A stretch of 64,000 bases of DNA from Actinobaculum massiliense (lineage in GTDB: Bacteria; Actinomycetota; Actinomycetes; Actinomycetales; Actinomycetaceae), in contig NZ_LN881717.1 of NCBI RefSeq assembly GCF_001457435.1, forward strand, positions 133,896 to 197,895. The letters are read 5' to 3'. Below are positions 26,972 through 59,202 of this stretch, one piece after another. How positions within the stretch are numbered: position 1 is the first letter of the stretch; each line of letters begins with the position of its first letter. The position numbers and the translations under genes are program-made. The notes under the pieces are model-generated. The model was not told the origin of the DNA and made no database searches. It saw only the letters and a list, made by a program, of their open reading frames with translations.

Positions 26972-29050
26972 ATGGCTAACTTTGAGTGGTCCGATGCCGA
27001 TCAGCGCGCGGTCGATTCGAGCCGCGCACTTGCGGCGGACGCCGTCCAGAAAGTTGGAAATGGCCATCCCGGCACCGCGATGTCGCTAGCCCCCGCCGCC
27101 TACGTGCTTTATCAGCGGATCATGGATTTTGATCCCGCGGATACCGAGTGGATCGGGCGGGATCGTTTTATTCTTTCCGCCGGCCACAGCTCGCTCACCC
27201 AGTACCTGCAGTTGTTCTTGGCGGGAATCGATATTGAGCTTGAGGACCTCAAGCAACTTCGTACCTTCGGTTCGAAGACTCCCGGACATCCCGAGTACGG
27301 CCGCACCAAGGGCGTAGAGATGAGCACCGGCCCGCTTGGCCAGGGCGTTGCCACCGCCGTCGGCTTCGCGATGGCTTCCCGGCGCGCGCACGGGCTTTAC
27401 GATCCCACCGCGCCAGCGGGCGAATCGATTTTCGACCATTTCGTGTACGTGATCGCCGGGGACGGCGATATGCAGGAAGGCGTTTCGGGCGAGGCAGCCT
27501 CGCTGGCTGGCACCCAGGAACTGGGCAACCTCATCGTTATTTACGATGACAACCGCATTTCCATTGAGGATGACACTTCGATTGCTTTCGGCGAGGATGT
27601 TCTGGCTCGCTACGAGGCCTACGGCTGGCACACCCAGCACGTGAACTGGATTGGCGAAGATGGCTACAAGGAAGATCCCGAGGCGCTCTACAACGCGCTT
27701 CTGGAGGCGAAGAAGGTGACGGACAAGCCGTCCATTATTAAGCTCTCCACCATTATTGCCTGGCCGGCACCCACCAAGCAGGGCACCGGCGCCTCGCACG
27801 GATCGGCTCTCGGCGAGGAAGAAATCCGCGCCACCAAGGAAATCCTCGGGCTGGACCCGAATCTGGATTTCCAGATCGACGACGCCGTTCTTGCCCACGC
27901 CCGCGAAAATGCCGCGGCGCGCGGCAAGGCCGCACACGAGGCCTGGAACGCGAAGTTCACCGCTTGGCAGAAGGCGAACCCGGAGGGCGCCGAGCTTCTG
28001 GAGCGGGTGCGAGCACATCAGCTTCCCGCCGGCTGGGAAGAAAAGCTTCCCCGCTGGGAGGTCGGCTCGAAGGGTATCGCCACCCGCGCCGCCTCCGGAG
28101 AGGTGCTCAACTCACTAAAGGACGTGCTTCCCGAGCTGTGGGGCGGCTCTGCCGATTTGGCGGGGTCGAATAACACCACCATGAAGGGCGAGCCCTCGTT
28201 CCTACCCGAGCGTCGCGGCTCGAAGATGTTCCCGGGTAACCCGTATGGACGCACCCTGCACTTCGGTATTCGGGAATTCGCCATGGGCGCGATCCTCAAC
28301 GGCATTCAGCTCGACGGGCTCACCCGCCCCTACGGCGGCACTTTCTTCGTGTTCTCCGACTACATGCGCCCGGCGGTGCGCCTGGCCGCAATTCAGGGTG
28401 TTCCCACGATTTTCGTGTGGACACACGATTCGGTGGGCGTTGGCGAGGACGGCCCCACCCATCAGCCCATCGAGCACCTGTGGGCCATGCGCGCGATTCC
28501 GCACACGGCAATCGTTCGCCCCGCGGACGCCAACGAGACCGCGGCCGCCTGGCGCGCCGCCCTCGAGTTGCACGACGGCGGACCGATCGGCCTGGTGCTG
28601 ACCCGCCAGGGCTTGCCGATTTTGGAAGGCACGGATAGCGAGGGTGTGAAGCGGGGCGGCTACGTGCTGGCCGAATCTCCCACCGGCTCGGTAGACGTGC
28701 AGCTTCTGGCCACTGGCTCCGAAGTTTCGGTGGCCGTTGAGGCACAAAAGCAACTGGCTGAAAAGGGCGTTGGCGCACGGGTTATCTCCCTCCCCTGCCT
28801 CGAATGGTTCAACCAGCAGCCGCTGGAGTACCGCGACTCCGTGATCCTTCCCGAGGTAGGGGCTCGCGTTTCGGTGGAAGCCGGATCGGTACTGGGATGG
28901 AAGAACTACGTGGGCGATGCCGGCCGAAGTGTTGGAATTGACGAATTCGGTGAATCGGCTTCCGGTGGCGAGGTGATGGAGCACTTCCATATCAACGCGC
29001 AAACCGTTGCCGAGAAGGCTCTCGAGAGCATCGAGGCCGCGCGCGGCTAA
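26972..29050 (+). CDS. tkt: transketolase
   Basis: Thiamine-diphosphate enzyme of the pentose phosphate pathway. Motifs: GNGHPGTAMS near residue 30, GPLGQG near 120, GDGDMQEGVSGEA for ThDP-Mg binding near 160, and HDSVGVGEDGPTHQPIEHL near 485. 692 residues. GAGGAG lies about eight bases upstream of the ATG. It is followed by a terminator and then zwf-opcA; the tal gene usual in this cluster is absent from the window. Confidence 0.98.
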   Translation: MANFEWSDADQRAVDSSRALAADAVQKVGNGHPGTAMSLAPAAYVLYQRIMDFDPADTEWIGRDRFILSAGHSSLTQYLQLFLAGIDIELEDLKQLRTFGSKTPGHPEYGRTKGVEMSTGPLGQGVATAVGFAMASRRAHGLYDPTAPAGESIFDHFVYVIAGDGDMQEGVSGEAASLAGTQELGNLIVIYDDNRISIEDDTSIAFGEDVLARYEAYGWHTQHVNWIGEDGYKEDPEALYNALLEAKKVTDKPSIIKLSTIIAWPAPTKQGTGASHGSALGEEEIRATKEILGLDPNLDFQIDDAVLAHARENAAARGKAAHEAWNAKFTAWQKANPEGAELLERVRAHQLPAGWEEKLPRWEVGSKGIATRAASGEVLNSLKDVLPELWGGSADLAGSNNTTMKGEPSFLPERRGSKMFPGNPYGRTLHFGIREFAMGAILNGIQLDGLTRPYGGTFFVFSDYMRPAVRLAAIQGVPTIFVWTHDSVGVGEDGPTHQPIEHLWAMRAIPHTAIVRPADANETAAAWRAALELHDGGPIGLVLTRQGLPILEGTDSEGVKRGGYVLAESPTGSVDVQLLATGSEVSVAVEAQKQLAEKGVGARVISLPCLEWFNQQPLEYRDSVILPEVGARVSVEAGSVLGWKNYVGDAGRSVGIDEFGESASGGEVMEHFHINAQTVAEKALESIEAARG

Positions 29051-29103
29051 GGCGGCAACTCGCGCCCGCTTCCGAGTAAGATAGGCGCGGACGAAACCAC
29101 AGA

Positions 29104-29145
29104 CCGAGACCCGAGCGGATTTCGCCCGGGTCTCGGCTACTTTTA
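29104..29145 (+). terminator. terminator between tkt and zwf
   Basis: A 14-bp stem with one mismatch (29104-29117 with 29123-29136), a five-base loop, and a CTACTTTTA tail. It ends just before the zwf ribosome-binding site AAGGA (29145-29149). It may therefore terminate tkt or attenuate readthrough into zwf. Confidence 0.8.
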
Positions 29146-29152
29146 AGGAACT

Positions 29153-30661
29153 ATGACGACTAACCCATTGCGTGCACTTACGGACCGGCGTTTGCAGAGA
29201 ATCGCCGGCCCCTGCGGCATTGTGCTTTTCGGTATCACCGGCGACCTCGCCAAGCGCAAGATCCTGCCGGCACTTTACGACCTCACCAACCGCGGCCTAC
29301 TCCCGCCGTCGTTCTCCATTGTGGGCGTGGCACGGCGAGATATTGACGTGCGGAGCGCGGTTGAACAATCCGTGCGCGAGGGCGCAAAAACACCGGTTTC
29401 GGACACCGCACTCAAGCAGCTCCTGGATGGAGTTTCGCTAATTGTTGGCGGCTACGACGATCCGGAAATGTATCGCGCACTGGCGCAGCATTTGCGTGGG
29501 CTTGATGAAACGCGGGGTACCGGCGGAAACTTCGCCTTCTACCTGTCGATTCCCCCGCGTCTATTCCCGGTGGTTACCGAGGGGCTGGCGGGCGCCGACC
29601 TGAACCGGGGCGAGAACGGGAGCTGGCGGCGCGTGGTGATTGAAAAGCCCTTCGGGCGCGATCTCGCCTCCGCACGCGAACTCGACGAAACAGTGCGGGC
29701 CGTGTTCCCCGAAAGCTCGGTGTTCCGCATTGACCACTACCTCGGCAAAGAAACCGTGCAGAATATTATGGCGTTGCGCTTTGCCAACGAGCTGTACGAG
29801 CCGATTTGGAACTCCGCGCACGTCGACCACGTGCAAATCACCATGGCGGAGGACATAGGTATTGGTTCGCGCGCCGGATATTACGACGGTATTGGAGCCA
29901 CCCGTGACGTCATTCAAAACCACCTGCTCCAGCTCCTCGCACTCACCGCTATGGAAGAGCCGGTGGCCTTCACCGCCGATGCCGTGCGCGCCGAAAAGGA
30001 AAAGGTGCTCAAGGCAACCCACCTCTTTGGCCCGGCAGAGACGAATTCGGTGCGCGCGCAGTACGCCGGCGGCTGGCAGGGCGGAGAGCGGGTCAAGGCG
30101 TACCGCGAAGAAGACGGCATACCTGCCGATTCGATTACCGACACTTACGGCGCGATGGCGCTGGGTGTGGAAACGCGACGCTGGGCCGGGGTGCCGTTCT
30201 ATCTGCGCACCGGAAAGCGGCTGGGCCGGAGGGTTTCCGAAATCGCGATCGTTTTTAAGCGCCCGCCGTTCTTGCCGTTTGATGATATTTCTGGACTCGG
30301 GCAAAATACCCTGGTGATCCGGGTGCAACCCAACGAAGGCACCACGTTTAAGTTCGGCTCGAAGGTGCCGGGGTCAGAAATGCGCCTGCGCGACGTCACC
30401 ATGGATTTTGCCTATGGCCACGCTTTTACCGAATACACCCCCGAAGCCTACGAGCGGCTCATTTTGGATGTTCTCCTTGGCGAACCGCCGCTATTCCCCC
30501 AGTGGCGCGAGGTAGAAGAATCCTGGCGCATTATCGATCAGGTCGAAAACTATTGGGAAAGCGCCCCGGAGACTCTTGAGACCTATCACCCGGGCACCTG
30601 GGGGCCGGCGGGTGCCGATGCAATGCTCGCTGCAAATGGCCACGTGTGGCGGCGCCCCTAG
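29153..30661 (+). CDS. zwf: glucose-6-phosphate 1-dehydrogenase
   Basis: Oxidises glucose-6-phosphate to 6-phosphogluconolactone with NADP. The dinucleotide motif GITGDLAKRK is at 27-36, EKPFG at 164-168, and the active-site RIDHYLGKE at 192-200. 502 residues is normal. AAGGA lies three bases before the ATG. opcA, its actinobacterial assembly/activator partner, begins 20 bases downstream. No lactonase gene follows. Confidence 0.98.
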   Translation: MTTNPLRALTDRRLQRIAGPCGIVLFGITGDLAKRKILPALYDLTNRGLLPPSFSIVGVARRDIDVRSAVEQSVREGAKTPVSDTALKQLLDGVSLIVGGYDDPEMYRALAQHLRGLDETRGTGGNFAFYLSIPPRLFPVVTEGLAGADLNRGENGSWRRVVIEKPFGRDLASARELDETVRAVFPESSVFRIDHYLGKETVQNIMALRFANELYEPIWNSAHVDHVQITMAEDIGIGSRAGYYDGIGATRDVIQNHLLQLLALTAMEEPVAFTADAVRAEKEKVLKATHLFGPAETNSVRAQYAGGWQGGERVKAYREEDGIPADSITDTYGAMALGVETRRWAGVPFYLRTGKRLGRRVSEIAIVFKRPPFLPFDDISGLGQNTLVIRVQPNEGTTFKFGSKVPGSEMRLRDVTMDFAYGHAFTEYTPEAYERLILDVLLGEPPLFPQWREVEESWRIIDQVENYWESAPETLETYHPGTWGPAGADAMLAANGHVWRRP

Positions 30662-30681
30662 CGAAAACTTCTGGGAGAAAA

Positions 30682-31644
30682 ATGATTACTCATATGACGA
30701 ATACTACGGCGGCTAAGGTCGGCTCTCGCCTTGACGAGCTACGCGGCACCGCCGGATCCGGTGCTCTTGGCCGGGTTTTGACGCTGATTATTTTGGCGGA
30801 AACCGAGGGCGGCGTTCGCGACGCGCTCTCAGCCGCGGCCGGGGCCTCCCGCGCGCATCCGGCGCGGATTATTGTGCTCCTGAGAGCCGGCGGAAAACCG
30901 GAAGCCGCGGAGAGCGGTGAAGATCGGGCGTCCTCGCGGCTTGACGCGGAGATTCGTACCGGATCGGAAGCGGGGGCTTCGGAAATTGTTATTTTGCGGA
31001 CCGTGGGAGACGCCGGCACCAATGCCGAAACGCTCGTTACGCCGCTCCTCCTTCCGGACGCGCCGATTGTTTCCTGGTGGATACAAAAAGCTCCGGATAA
31101 TCCCGCCGCAACCGAGATTGGAAAAATGGCGCAGCGCCGGATTACAACCAGCCGTACCGCCGATGATCCGCTCCGAATGCTGAGCAACCTCCGCGAGGCC
31201 TACCAACCCGGAGATACCGACCTGGCGTGGGCAGGAATCACTCTCTGGCGCAACCATATCGCCGCCATGGTCGACGAATTCGCGCACCAGGCGGATACCG
31301 AGGAACTGATTACCGGCGGCGTGGTAGACGGAAATCCAAATAATGCCTCGACGTACCTCATGGTGGCGTGGTTGCGGCTCCTTAGTGGGGCAGACATTAC
31401 GCTGACGCCGGGGCGCGGAAGCGCAATTAATTCAGTGACGCTTAGCTTGCGCGGACCGGGCGAGATTAGCCTGCGCCGCTCACCCGGATCAGATTTCGCA
31501 GTGATGCACCGCCCGGGCCGTCACGACCAGGAAGTTTCGCTTCCCCGCCGAAGCATCGAAGCGATGTTAATTGAGGATCTGCGCGATCTTAATCCCGACC
31601 CCGCGTATGCGGCGGTACTTCAGAGCGCCTACTTCAACAACTGA
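30682..31644 (+). CDS. opcA: OpcA, glucose-6-phosphate dehydrogenase assembly protein
   Basis: A 320-residue partner of Zwf found in Actinobacteria and cyanobacteria. Recognisable segments: the internal PDAPIVSWWIQKAP and ISRTADDP-like TSRTADDPLRML, plus a C-terminal half with TPGRGSAINSV. I choose the ATG at 30682, with GGGAG just upstream, over a start 12 codons earlier that would overlap zwf. Known for the family: OpcA is needed for Zwf activity. The sequence alone does not show the mechanism. Confidence 0.92.
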   Translation: MITHMTNTTAAKVGSRLDELRGTAGSGALGRVLTLIILAETEGGVRDALSAAAGASRAHPARIIVLLRAGGKPEAAESGEDRASSRLDAEIRTGSEAGASEIVILRTVGDAGTNAETLVTPLLLPDAPIVSWWIQKAPDNPAATEIGKMAQRRITTSRTADDPLRMLSNLREAYQPGDTDLAWAGITLWRNHIAAMVDEFAHQADTEELITGGVVDGNPNNASTYLMVAWLRLLSGADITLTPGRGSAINSVTLSLRGPGEISLRRSPGSDFAVMHRPGRHDQEVSLPRRSIEAMLIEDLRDLNPDPAYAAVLQSAYFNN

Positions 31645-31673
31645 TCGAAAACATTTTTTCAATATGCTTTTCC

Positions 31674-31701
31674 TTGATTCGTGTACTGCGGAGAGTAGAA
31701 T
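31674..31701 (+). promoter_or_regulatory. candidate sigma-70-type promoter of the bacteriocin cassette
   Basis: TTGATT (31674-31679) and TAGAAT (31696-31701), separated by 16 bases, sit in the AT-rich gap after opcA. The start of transcription would be near 31708, about 50 bases before the bacteriocin ATG. This suggests that the cassette has its own promoter. Confidence 0.55.
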
Positions 31702-31756
31702 CATCCTCATAACGCAATTAACTGAATAGTCATAACGATTCGGCAGGGCAATTAAT

Positions 31757-32071
31757 ATGTCAAAAATAAGCCGGGTAACGGCAAAAATACTATCGGGAGT
31801 TGGTGCTCTGATTCTCGTAGCCGCTCCCGTAGCCATGGCGTCAGTGCAGTATCCCGCTGAGGGTGGTATATGGGAGTACGGTAAAAGGGGCTTCGGCAAA
31901 GCTTATTCTTACTATACCGTCAATAGAACACATGGGTCATCAATCGCAAATGCCAATGACACTAAATTGCTATTTCGCTCCACTAACACCGTGGCCGGTA
32001 AGAAGTCAATAGCGGAATATCAAGGCCGTACGCCCTGGCAGAATTTTCATTACCATTACAGGGTCTCGTAG
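31757..32071 (+). CDS. lactococcin 972-like bacteriocin precursor
   Basis: A 104-residue secreted peptide. It has a Sec signal (basic start, hydrophobic core about 10-25) with AMA at 26-28, so cleavage is predicted after A28, leaving a 76-residue mature part. That part opens with EGGIWEYG, then repeated aromatic and small residues, THGSS, and an aromatic C-terminal FHYHYRVS. Known family: lactococcin 972 is a cysteine-free, Sec-exported bacteriocin that begins EGTW and is rich in Gly, Ser, His and Tyr; it blocks septum formation through lipid II. This peptide also has no Cys. The two genes that follow are the usual partners of the family. AGGG lies nine bases before the ATG. Activity is inferred, not shown. 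Confidence 0.85.
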   Translation: MSKISRVTAKILSGVGALILVAAPVAMASVQYPAEGGIWEYGKRGFGKAYSYYTVNRTHGSSIANANDTKLLFRSTNTVAGKKSIAEYQGRTPWQNFHYHYRVS

Positions 32072-32090
32072 CCGTTAGTTTCAAGCTCCT

Positions 32091-34022
32091 ATGAGAAACC
32101 TACTACGCGTTTTAGGGGTTGCTACGGCCATAATTGGTTGTCTTTTCGCGGGCGTTTCGGTCGTCCACGAACAGGAGGATTTTCCTCCGGGAACCAATTT
32201 TAACTTTGGGCTGATTACTGAAGGTGCTCAGCTCGAAAAAACAACCATCGTTTCACACATCTCTGAACTCGCCGTCAGACTAGGTACGCCAATTTTTAAG
32301 AACGCACCCAGCTTTATAGACGGTGATGCCAACGTGGACGTCATTTACTTTCCGGCATCGGGGATCCAACTCCAAGGTAGGGTGCCCTGGTTGTCGGCCG
32401 TTGACGGCCAGTACGTGGCTCCGGAGGATATCGGTACTCGAACGCTAACGGGTAGTTACGCGATTCAGTCCGCTGGCGGGCAGGAACGAATAATCCGGGA
32501 CTGGGCTGAGGAAACCGGACTCGAACTCACCGGTTTCGATCGTCTGAGTCCGGTACACACCTCATCCCAACTTGTTCGGAGCGGAATAGGATATGCGCTC
32601 GGCACGCTCATCCTCCTCGCGCTTTCGTCTTGTCTGTTTATATTCGCGCGTCGACGCACCGCGCGAAAGGTATTACTAACCTCAGGCGTTGCTCGGTGGC
32701 GTATTCACTACCATGACGTATGGGAAGTCTGGCGAACCTTTTCGTTTGCCGCGCTCTTTACCTACGCACTCATTGTGTTAGCTTGCCTGGTATGGGGCTG
32801 GACTAGGACCGATCCCTTTGTTTGGCGCAGTTTTACCCAGTTGCTCGCATTACTTGCGATTTGCCTGGTAGTGACGGTAGCGGCGTCGCGGCTCGCTCTA
32901 CCCCGGATTCGCGATGCTGGTATTCGCACCACGGTACCCGATCGGCGCCTCAATCTGGGAGCTGGAGTAGCGCGCGCCTTGGGACTCGTCTTGATCGTAT
33001 TCATGTTGCCACTCAGCATCTACAGTGCGACTCTCGCGCACGCCAACGAGGAGCAACTACAGCAATGGACGCGGGCGCAGGATGCGGTGCGCCTTCAGAT
33101 CTCCGCATCAATTGATTCCAGCGCGGCGCAAGAAGCGTATATATCGGCAGCGAGTGAGTTTCTTTCGACTAGCGCACAGGAAAATTTACCGGCATTTTCG
33201 GCGGTAATTGATCAACTCATGGATATTCCTGTGCCCGACGGGTACGACCACATCATCCTGGCGGACCGTAACTACATAAACCTCATGGGAATTACGGTAT
33301 CTGACCTCGCTCTGGTGAATGTCGATTCATCCACCCGCGATGCCCTTTCCACACTCGCTACTAACGGTGCGGGAATCTCCGCTCATTACTATTCTTGGAA
33401 CAACGAAGATGCTTTTCCCGCTATCGGTCCATCCCTTTTGGATGCGAGCAACACCGTAAAAACCAGTAATCCACTCATCGTAGTTCTGGAGAATCCCTAT
33501 CAAGAACTAGATCAGCTCGGAGCGCTTGGATCTTTTCTTGTCAACGGGCAGGTTATCTTTAGCAACCCGGATAAAGTACTAGAGCTTGCTACGAAAAGCG
33601 GCTTCTCTTCATTTATTCTCGGAGTAGATAACGTGACGGACGCTTTTGCCGCAGAGGCGCAGTTTCAACGGATACTTAAGATTTCAGGAGTCCTCGCTAC
33701 TTTCATCGCGGCGGCAACCGTGGGGTTAATGCTTTTCGTTGCGGCCTTAAACTGGGGAAACAGTAACCCGGAGCAAATTTTTGCGCTATATACTGCCGGG
33801 TCTCCGCGGCATCACATAGTGCGGACGCGCATCCGGAAAGAATTTGCGTTGGCGGTGATAGCGTGCGCAATTGGCGCTACCCTCGCCGTAATGCAGTTGG
33901 ATAATCTTCTCTACGCGGGGACGATCGTAGCCCTCGTTTTGCTCGTATACATGGGCGGTACCTATTGGACTCACCTTCACGTTGTCCGAGCTATCTCACT
34001 AAAAACTATTCACCGCACCTGA
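32091..34022 (+). CDS. bacteriocin-associated large integral membrane protein
   Basis: A 643-residue membrane protein that starts 19 bases after the bacteriocin gene. Hydrophobic segments lie near residues 5-25, 168-188, 217-238, 248-266, 290-312, 553-575, 598-618 and 622-640. A large extracytoplasmic region falls between the first two, and a second (about 315-545) between the fifth and sixth. This shape, with a short ABC ATPase next, matches the bacteriocin-associated membrane protein of lactococcin-972-type operons. Expected role: producer immunity and/or export through an ABC complex, which is inference. No Shine-Dalgarno is evident, so translation may be coupled. Base composition is more A+T-rich than in neighbouring genes. 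Confidence 0.8.
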   Translation: MRNLLRVLGVATAIIGCLFAGVSVVHEQEDFPPGTNFNFGLITEGAQLEKTTIVSHISELAVRLGTPIFKNAPSFIDGDANVDVIYFPASGIQLQGRVPWLSAVDGQYVAPEDIGTRTLTGSYAIQSAGGQERIIRDWAEETGLELTGFDRLSPVHTSSQLVRSGIGYALGTLILLALSSCLFIFARRRTARKVLLTSGVARWRIHYHDVWEVWRTFSFAALFTYALIVLACLVWGWTRTDPFVWRSFTQLLALLAICLVVTVAASRLALPRIRDAGIRTTVPDRRLNLGAGVARALGLVLIVFMLPLSIYSATLAHANEEQLQQWTRAQDAVRLQISASIDSSAAQEAYISAASEFLSTSAQENLPAFSAVIDQLMDIPVPDGYDHIILADRNYINLMGITVSDLALVNVDSSTRDALSTLATNGAGISAHYYSWNNEDAFPAIGPSLLDASNTVKTSNPLIVVLENPYQELDQLGALGSFLVNGQVIFSNPDKVLELATKSGFSSFILGVDNVTDAFAAEAQFQRILKISGVLATFIAAATVGLMLFVAALNWGNSNPEQIFALYTAGSPRHHIVRTRIRKEFALAVIACAIGATLAVMQLDNLLYAGTIVALVLLVYMGGTYWTHLHVVRAISLKTIHRT

Positions 34023-34036
34023 AGTTGTAGGAAACT

Positions 34037-34672
34037 ATGTCTATTATCACACGCGATTTACGTATGGAGATCACGGGCCGAACCATTTTTAGCGATGTCA
34101 ACGTGTCTGTTTCCTCAGGCCAAATTACCGCTCTCGTGGGTCCTTCTGGGAGCGGCAAAACTACGTTGCTGAATATCTTAGGGTTGCTTCTGCGCCCGAC
34201 GGCTGGATTAGTGGAGATCGACGGCGAAGACGCCACCGGATGGAAAGAAAACAAAATTCAGCGATTTTGGCGAGAGAAAGCTGCCTTTATCTACCAAGAC
34301 GCGGGGATCATCCCCGGCCGTACAGTCGCTTATAACGTAAATCTTCGTGGCCCGAACATTTTCGGGCGCTTTCCGAACCCAGATCATGACACCCTACGCG
34401 CGCTCGAGGCAGTAGGAATGCAGAGCCGTATACAGGAAGACGTTACGGTGCTTTCAGGCGGCGAAAAGCAACGTGTTGGCATTGCGCGGGCGCTTTATCG
34501 CCAAGCGCGGTACATCTACGCAGATGAGCCAACCGCATCGCTAGATGCGGCCAATCGCGCCCAGGTCATTTCATTGCTCGAAGAAGCGGCACGAGCTGGA
34601 AGCGCCGTTATCGTGGCTACCCACGACGAGCACCTTATGGAACACTGCCAACTACTCGTGCATGTCGGCTAA
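34037..34672 (+). CDS. ABC transporter ATP-binding protein of the bacteriocin cassette
   Basis: A 211-residue single ABC domain of the MacB/LolD-like group used by lactococcin-972-type systems. Walker A GPSGSGKT (35-42), Q-loop YQD (86-88), LSGGE (139-143), Walker B YIYADE (159-164) and switch His196 (THDE) are all intact, so it should hydrolyse ATP. It is expected to pair with the preceding membrane protein. TAGGA is upstream of the ATG. The gene ends 27 bases from the convergent secG stop, with no convincing terminator between. Confidence 0.9.
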   Translation: MSIITRDLRMEITGRTIFSDVNVSVSSGQITALVGPSGSGKTTLLNILGLLLRPTAGLVEIDGEDATGWKENKIQRFWREKAAFIYQDAGIIPGRTVAYNVNLRGPNIFGRFPNPDHDTLRALEAVGMQSRIQEDVTVLSGGEKQRVGIARALYRQARYIYADEPTASLDAANRAQVISLLEEAARAGSAVIVATHDEHLMEHCQLLVHVG

Positions 34673-34699
34673 ATTTTAGGGCAAGCGAGTTACGTGATT

Positions 34700-34942
34700 T
34701 TAGCCGAACTTGACGATCAAGCCGATAAGAACCACGGAGATGAGCCAGACGATGCCCAGCCCCACGGTAATACGGTTAAGATTCCGTTCGGCCACGCCCG
34801 ATGAACGCATCGAGGTGGAGATTCCTCCACCGAACATTTCGGAAATTCCGCCGCCCTTACCCTTGTGGAGCAGAATCGAGAGCGTCAAAAGAATGCTCGT
34901 CAGAAGCAGAAGTGCCTCGCAAACGTAAAGCAGAACGGTCAC
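34700..34942 (-). CDS. secG: protein translocase subunit SecG
   Basis: Small subunit of the SecYEG channel. The 80-residue product has two membrane helices (about 3-24 and 57-78) and the conserved loop HKGKGGGISEMFGG (26-39). The GTG start has AAGGA about eight bases upstream. It follows tpiA after a hairpin, the standard actinobacterial order. Confidence 0.95.
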   Translation of the reverse strand: MTVLLYVCEALLLLTSILLTLSILLHKGKGGGISEMFGGGISTSMRSSGVAERNLNRITVGLGIVWLISVVLIGLIVKFG

Positions 34943-35041
34943 GCCGTGGTTCCTTTCAATATGTTCCTGCGGCCATACATAGCGTCAGGTCGGAGCCATG
35001 ATGATGCACGCGCAGAAAAGCGACGTTATTTAGTTTAGCCG

Positions 35042-35078
35042 AAGAGCGCGGATAGGTAAGAAACCCATCCGCGCTCTT
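35042..35078 (-). terminator. hairpin between tpiA and secG
   Basis: A perfect 12-bp stem (35042-35053 with 35067-35078), whose loop can extend pairing (GGT/ACC). It lies just after the tpiA stop on the minus strand. There is no T run, so it may be a partial terminator or an RNA-stabilising structure that sets secG level. Confidence 0.6.
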
Positions 35079-35091
35079 GGTCACTGTTGAC

Positions 35092-35871
35092 TTAGGCCGC
35101 CTGGTACGTGACAATCTTGGCGAAATCTTCAGCCTTGAGGCTGGCTCCGCCGACCAGTGCGCCGTCGACGTCAGGCTGGGACATAATGTCCGCCACGTTC
35201 GCCGGCTTCACGGATCCACCGTACTGAATGCGAACCGCTTCGGCAGTAGCATCGTCGAAAAGCTCGCCGATGCGCTGGCGAATAGCTCCGCACACCTCCT
35301 GGGCGTCTTCCGGGGTTGCTACCTCGCCAGTGCCGATGGCCCAGATGGGCTCATAGGCGATAACCGACTTCGCAACCTCTTCGGCGGAAAGCCCGGCGAG
35401 CATTGCGTCGATCTGGCCGACCACGTACTCCACCTGCTTGCCTTCCCTGCGCACCTCGAGCGCTTCGCCGCAGCACATGATCGGGGTGAGGCCGGCATCA
35501 AGCGCCTTCTTGGCCTTCTCCCCCACCAACTCGTTGGATTCGCCGTGGTATTCACGCCGCTCCGAGTGGCCCACTACGACGTACCTGCAACCAAGCTTGG
35601 TCAGCATTGTCGTCGAAATGTCACCCGTGTACGCACCCTCGTCGTGGGTTGAAACGTCCTGAGCGCCGTACTTGATCTTCAGCCCGTCAGACTCGCACAG
35701 GGTCTGGATCGAACGAAGATCGGTGAACGGAGGCAGAACAACAACCTCTACCTTCGAGAAGTCATGCTTGACGTCCTCGAGCGTCCAAGCGAGTTTCTGA
35801 ACCAGGTGGGTAGCCTCGAGATGATCGAGGTTCATCTTCCAGTTACCCGCCATAATCGGGGTACGTGCCAT
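35092..35871 (-). CDS. tpiA: triosephosphate isomerase
   Basis: Interconverts dihydroxyacetone phosphate and glyceraldehyde-3-phosphate. Active-site residues are seen: N10 and K12 (GNWKMN), H102 (VVGHSERR) and E174 ([11 protein letters not shown]), plus the phosphate-binding YGGSVKPAN. 259 residues. The ATG is two bases from the pgk stop. Confidence 0.98.
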
Positions 35872-59112: not shown

Positions 59113-59202
59113 TTTCTCTCCTTAAGCTTTAAGAACTGCGGCAACACACCGGCTACCTCTCACGCATGATTTAAGCTTAGACGATACGGCGCGGGGCCAC
59201 GG

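Follow-up and report, generated by a model that had tools for sequence, protein, structure and literature searches.

What do three co-directional genes lying between opcA and secG of Actinobaculum massiliense encode, and do they belong to the housekeeping neighbourhood that surrounds them? The question arose from a stretch of 64,000 nucleotides (contig NZ_LN881717.1, positions 133,896 to 197,895 of the forward strand; hereafter the window, in whose coordinates positions are given), where an original prediction, made from the sequence alone, had recognised a lactococcin 972-type bacteriocin cassette. The convergent opcA (ending at 31644) and secG genes enclose three intact open reading frames (ORFs), all on the + strand, for a bacteriocin precursor of 104 amino acids (aa; 31757..32071), a polytopic membrane protein of 643 aa (32091..34022) and an ATP-binding cassette (ABC) ATPase of 211 aa (34037..34672). 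The intergenic gaps are 19 bases between the peptide and membrane-protein genes and 14 bases before the ATPase gene, so that the sizes and gaps first described (104/643/211 aa; 14-19 bases) proved exact. Our analysis supports the earlier interpretation: the trio is very probably a lactococcin 972-type bacteriocin cassette, and it is horizontally acquired, intact and distant from the prototype.

The claim that this three-gene order characterises a lactococcin 972-type system was borne out by the lactococcin 972 operon of pBL1 (Lactococcus lactis, NC_004955), which has the same gene order, small gaps, the same type of peptide, a two-part ABC system and products of similar size (91/648/207 aa). 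The pBL1 operon is carried on a plasmid, whereas the present cassette is chromosomal, at opcA/secG. As had been anticipated, the peptide is far from its Lactococcus counterpart, with 33% identity over 55 residues (E 4e-4) in direct comparison and a probability of 52.9 (E 1.4e-4, 40 columns) by profile. The membrane proteins share 24% identity over 144 aa (E 0.003) and the ATPases 32% over 208 residues.

The precursor starts with a hydrophobic N-terminus ending in A-M-A before S29, from which a signal peptide of residues 1-28 is predicted, the cleavage site being placed by eye. The predicted mature part (residues 29-104; 76 aa, 8683.5 Da) contains no cysteine (Cys), in agreement with the secreted, Cys-free peptide originally described. 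A match to PF09683, set beforehand as the condition for the peptide, was obtained with 24.4 bits (E 4.5e-5), above the cut-off of 22, and none of 14 well-known genomes used as a control matched this profile. The AlphaFold2 model, built from a 19-sequence alignment, is all beta with a mean predicted local distance difference test score (pLDDT) of 81.8; block means reach 90-98 over residues 31-104 and fall below 50 across most of the signal region. The closest structures are formosin D (9hkj, entitled “Lactococcin 972 family bacteriocin”; Foldseek E 6.3e-6, Z 12.6, 79 residues, 2.1 Å) and lactococcin 972 itself (2lgn; Foldseek E 0.039, Z 8.4, 65 residues, 2.4 Å), the next entry having a Z of 6.5. 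The predicted fold is thus the Lcn972-type beta-sandwich. A sequence-profile search likewise retrieved formosin D (E 3.3e-24), with 2lgn at just E 2.9. Formosin D, the closest solved structure, is 33% identical and has the motif YPxEGGxWxYG in common with the window peptide, which lacks its N-terminal stretch (WVNPG..); no paper on formosin D was found among the matches listed. Since single comparisons to the prototype are weak, membership of the lactococcin 972 family was assigned from Pfam, fold and gene context jointly.

Within the same bacterial family, Ancrocorticia populi carries the same trio (locus L071), with a peptide 51-54% identical and also Cys-free, whereas its permease is just 24% identical and the cassette occupies another genomic place. 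A second tight group of peptides (L062, L063, L065, L066 and L069) shares the motif GGxWYYGTNYATGNASS; its members show 25-28% identity with the window peptide and are Cys-free in the mature part, and in L062, L063, L065 and L066 a membrane-protein gene lies alongside.

Cysteines in the relatives occur mostly in pairs. In the 19-peptide alignment (A4), 16 sequences carry one Cys before the conserved HGS and another at the C-terminus, three carry neither (the window peptide, L071 and L083) and none carries a single one. Eight of the 26 loci confirmed in species genomes lie outside this alignment: six have both, in L091 the terminal Cys is accompanied by one at a different position, and the L093 peptide is incomplete. 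Thirteen extra frames of the bacterial family matching the A4 profile comprise nine with both (two of them identical and one from a gene with an internal stop) and four with neither. Altogether, 31 of the 39 peptides counted have both, seven neither and one a shifted Cys, rows that are related by descent and hence give no strict probability; L109-L115, L004, a second peptide-like frame in L086 and the L064 peptide were left out of the count. The L064 frame (1364-1687 of that locus), on a short contig and next to a partial permease, has six cysteines at unusual, off-pattern places. The five GGxWYYGTN peptides have a Cys at neither site. At the first site, formosin D carries V instead, and no Cys occurs in the profile-aligned part of the pBL1 peptide. 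This pattern suggests, as a simple reading, a disulfide whose two cysteines are gained or lost together. No paper on paired cysteines in the lactococcin 972 family was recognised among the matches listed.

The two other products would form an ABC system. The best NCBIfam match of the ATPase is TIGR03608 (L_ocin_972_ABC), with 178.6 bits and thus under the cut-off of 254.85, which the pBL1 ATPase also misses (253.4). Its Walker A, LSGGE signature, Walker B and H-loop motifs are intact. As for the membrane protein, a profile of 24 permeases aligned with the pBL1 membrane protein with a probability of 98.4 (E 8e-15, 590 columns), whereas searched against solved structures by sequence it gave no match (best E 0.86, a baseplate protein). 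Hydropathy places membrane segments near residues 3-27, 164-188, 213-238, 242-273, 286-318, 528-556, 583-607 and 598-625, which can be read as a one-plus-three arrangement occurring twice. The predicted model (mean pLDDT 84.0) is nearest to YbbP (Z 17.9, 432 aligned residues, 6.7 Å, and a second match of 16.2) and next to BceB (Z 15.8, 342 aligned residues, 5.9 Å, and 15.0), with root-mean-square deviations of 4.7-6.7 Å that describe the overall arrangement rather than detail. Single FtsX-like permeases match the halves separately, HrtB and FtsX on about residues 1-279, LolE and FtsX on 283-643. Each of these two FtsX-like halves has a large non-membrane domain, and in fold the predicted model is an FtsX-like permease bearing extracytoplasmic domain(s), as in type VII ABC systems. 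The likeness to YbbAP, BceAB, LolCDE, MacB and FtsEX is one of predicted fold only, and none of them was named when the membrane protein was scanned against Pfam and NCBIfam. Like YbbP and BceB, the permease has its two halves in a single chain, whereas LolCE consists of two chains. A link between DUF1430 and FtsX through a Pfam clan is in print (PMC6588880), hence the class assignment of the permease is not new; no paper joining “lactococcin 972” with FtsX, BceAB, type VII ABC or MacB was found among the matches listed. Residues ~340-400 resemble DUF6619 (PF20324; cut-off 27), weakly here (12.8 bits) and in three relatives with 27.4 (L059, just above the cut-off), 24.0 and 15.7 bits.

Several results weigh against the identification of the trio. 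The peptide remains below the TIGR01653 cut-off of 32.1 (29.4 bits, E 7.3e-7); the prototype scores 108.6 with this model, and the relatives L071, L086 and L092 score 23.6, 24.2 and 18.3, all three below the cut-off. Besides, likeness of a predicted fold by itself is no proof of function. The expected match of the membrane protein to TIGR01654 was not obtained: searched alone, it matched neither TIGR01654 nor DUF1430 at E values up to 1, and the TIGR01654 model run on its own genome matched only at another place (13.9 bits). Among nine same-family relatives, one matches DUF1430 (15.5 bits) and three TIGR01654 (11.9-20.1 bits; cut-off 189.35), and proteins from three other loci gave 17.8 bits, 36.0 bits and no match, whereas the pBL1 prototype membrane protein reaches 706.3 bits. 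On sequence comparison, the protein is a distant relative of the pBL1 protein and not a member of TIGR01654 or DUF1430 by cut-off. The promoter candidate with which the cassette had been credited did not hold up either: the promoter-like site at 31674-31701 is one of three in 30600-35200, against 3.3 expected by chance. Finally, the cassette is without a regulator gene.

How would such a cassette work? We infer the following sequence of steps. Sec would export the peptide and signal peptidase would trim it to a Cys-free beta-sandwich protein of ~8.7 kDa. By analogy with Lcn972, a lipid II-binding peptide that blocks septum formation (PMC9964109, PMC4055356), the mature peptide would most likely bind a lipid II-type precursor and halt cell-wall synthesis in competitors; septal action and a narrow spectrum would be carried over from the prototype. 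Low similarity need not abolish activity, as illustrated by Mediterrocin, an active bacteriocin despite 18% identity to the Lcn972 core (PMC12345188). The membrane protein and the ATPase would form an FtsX/BceB-like (type VII) ABC complex that works mechanically on the outer side of the membrane. This complex may free the target from the peptide and so protect the producer, as has been proposed for BceAB, which would release intermediates of the lipid II cycle that peptides have bound; BceAB target protection against other peptides acting on this cycle has been published (PMC7038271). The rival explanations considered here address these proposed steps and overlap with the favoured identification.

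One of them retains the bacteriocin cassette and assigns the ABC pair to export or maturation of the peptide instead of immunity. It is favoured by the NCBIfam title of this ATPase family (“putative bacteriocin export ABC transporter”), and the pneumococcal authors stated in 2024 that in no lactococcin 972 locus had the roles of the B- and C-gene products, i.e., the ABC pair, been verified (PMC11796350). However, the N-terminus of the peptide is of the Sec type, and with a signal peptide present a dedicated exporter is not needed; the permease model resembles YbbP and BceB, machines described as acting on the membrane or at its outer face (PMC12646458, PMC7038271); and there are permease loci in which no peptide was recognised. 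An export function is therefore unlikely, and self-protection, which is favoured by these loci together with the BceB/YbbP-like fold, is the most likely role of the ABC pair. This is in line with the lactococcal authors, who describe orf2-orf3 as immunity genes encoding a putative ABC transporter (PMC4055356), and with pneumococcal scbBC, likewise seen without a peptide (PMC11796350).

The loci in question were inspected one by one, seven permease loci (L053, L054, L056, L060, L061, L067 and L068) having initially shown no whole peptide match. In L053, L056 and L060 no peptide was recognised, neither by the locus search nor by eye within 900 bases upstream, and L054 has a peptide with an internal stop. 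The other three are uninformative, the permease frame being incomplete or shifted in L061 and L067, and L068 lying at a contig edge. Certain points tell against self-protection. Whole permease and ATPase frames are found only in L060 among the three loci without a recognised peptide, the permease or the ATPase being split in the other two, and such loci may carry a peptide too divergent to be recognised. Moreover, streptococcin B still inhibited pneumococcal strains expressing scbBC (PMC11796350), hence the ABC pair is not always sufficient for immunity.

The distribution of the genes was then considered, a presence in all relatives with fixed sequence being what a housekeeping role would predict. 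The cassette is present in a single copy in its own genome. PF09683 occurs in four of 59 genomes, own included, and in at least 21 of 213 genomes of the bacterial family, a lower bound as the own genome was missed by that search though it carries PF09683; the membrane-protein gene occurs in 14 of the 213, own included. In 19 of the 23 PF09683 places of the family, a same-strand match to the membrane-protein gene lies alongside, within 1500 bases (in two frames for two of the 19); some of these loci had themselves contributed to the membrane profile and so match by construction. The four others (L098, L101, L103 and L106) have no such match within this distance. In a scan of species genomes with the peptide alignment A2, 26 loci were confirmed among 43 candidate stretches; these loci belong to Actinobacteria and Firmicutes. 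A profile of 11 family membrane proteins found the membrane-protein gene at 25/26 of them (two, L071 and L092, coming from genomes that contributed to the profile), co-directional and downstream in 24/26 and together with a co-directional ABC gene in 23/26. The departures are illustrated by L078, where the membrane-protein gene follows only after 1.8 kb, L091, where both the membrane-protein and ABC genes are on the opposite strand, and L093, whose stretch ends ~100 bases past the peptide without a membrane-protein gene; L087 and L093 reach a contig edge.

The site itself is empty in a genome of the same genus. In the only same-genus genome searched (G001), opcA and secG are convergent and 231 bases apart, and this spacing is 194 bases in G017 and 109 bases in G004, these three out of 30 opcA loci being the ones compared base by base. 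In A. populi (G016), the cassette is on contig 5 and opcA on contig 3; hence, the two cassettes occupy different places. The higher A+T content predicted relative to the flanks was also found: the G+C content of the cassette is 52.5% against a mean of 59.6% (standard deviation 2.3%; 2916-base windows in 100-base steps), and the lowest-G+C segment of this length in the whole window (51.7%) starts at 31601. Third-position G+C is 0.49-0.56 in the trio vs 0.65-0.79 in seven neighbour genes. Sporadic occurrence in the family, absence from the same-genus genome and location in the lowest-G+C stretch together lead to the conclusion of an acquired cassette. A housekeeping role was rejected, the genes being sporadic and, in G001, G017 and G004, missing from this junction. 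Neither need the cassette have replaced a 6-phosphogluconolactonase gene (pgl), because these genomes have only 231, 194 and 109 bases between opcA and secG. A PF01182 gene sits elsewhere in the own genome. In G009, opcA and secG are separated by an ORF of 249 aa, presumably pgl in view of the usual gene order.

Searches for a vehicle of this acquisition were negative. No match at E 1e-3 was found for the peptide and the membrane protein in 72,556 plasmid records, or for the membrane protein, the sole query, in 50,697 phage records; these searches exclude close relatives only, as pBL1 was missed although present in the plasmid collection. No tRNA lies near the cassette, the only one of the window being tRNA-Leu at 59201, and no flanking repeats beyond short two-copy matches and no mobile-element mark were found at the cassette.

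This distribution also bears on whether the peptide inhibits growth at all. A secreted protein with another role (a signal, an envelope-stress trigger or a factor in host interaction) would agree with the low similarity to the prototype, and the homologue Sil of Streptococcus iniae, while inhibiting the growth of Bacillus subtilis, left viability unaffected and was immunomodulating too (PMC4004548). Sporadic accessory distribution, the same-genus empty site and the linkage to a Bce-like ABC system fit competition better, which makes such a role highly improbable.

A last alternative is that the cassette is decaying or silent and retained only as resistance to the peptides of neighbours. Decay in progress is indeed seen in two loci of one genus, L053 (G029, contig 19) and L054 (G129), in which the cassette lies 3' of the same gene (by eye): L053 has a split ATPase and no recognised peptide, and in L054 a stop interrupts the peptide frame and the permease is in two frames. 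The promoter site of the window, not above chance, would also agree with silence. All three frames of the cassette in the window are intact and the ATPase motifs are present, and we consider decay improbable. Genome G129 has three lactococcin 972-type peptide loci (L054, L057 and L058) and four membrane-gene matches, two of which are pieces of one gene.

Around the cassette, zwf and opcA were assigned by Pfam, and we take the other neighbours to be tkt on the opcA side and secG (ORF at 34700-34942, - strand), tpiA, pgk and gap on the other side, i.e., a central-metabolism neighbourhood. The usual actinobacterial order is tkt-tal-zwf-opcA-pgl; here, zwf directly follows tkt (29050-29153) with no transaldolase gene between them, and no pgl follows opcA. 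The gap from opcA to the peptide gene (31645..31756, + strand) is an A+T-rich putative promoter region of 112 bases. At the other end, an inverted pair GGCTAAA/TTTAGCC at 34656-34716, spanning the convergent ends of the ATPase and secG genes, might be a shared terminator; the folding energy of this junction is ordinary compared with shuffled sequences (z -0.29). In the same-genus genome G001, a hairpin with a T run stands here in place of the inverted pair.

Lactococcin 972-type loci are well known, and the cassette is one more of them, in a little-studied family and with a same-genus empty site. Two additions are suggested by our analysis, namely the paired-Cys pattern in the relatives, a putative disulfide without counterpart here, and the BceB/YbbP-like architecture of the permease. 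The latter offers a testable idea, the permease resembling machines that free cell-wall precursors from antibiotics. Tentatively, and at somewhat less than even chances, the cassette may belong to a poorly described, widespread branch in which an ancestral single disulfide was lost pairwise several times, here too, and in which a divergent single-chain BceB/YbbP-like permease strips the bacteriocin off lipid II. If true, this reading would provide a mechanism for an immunity system whose mode of action is unverified across the whole class.

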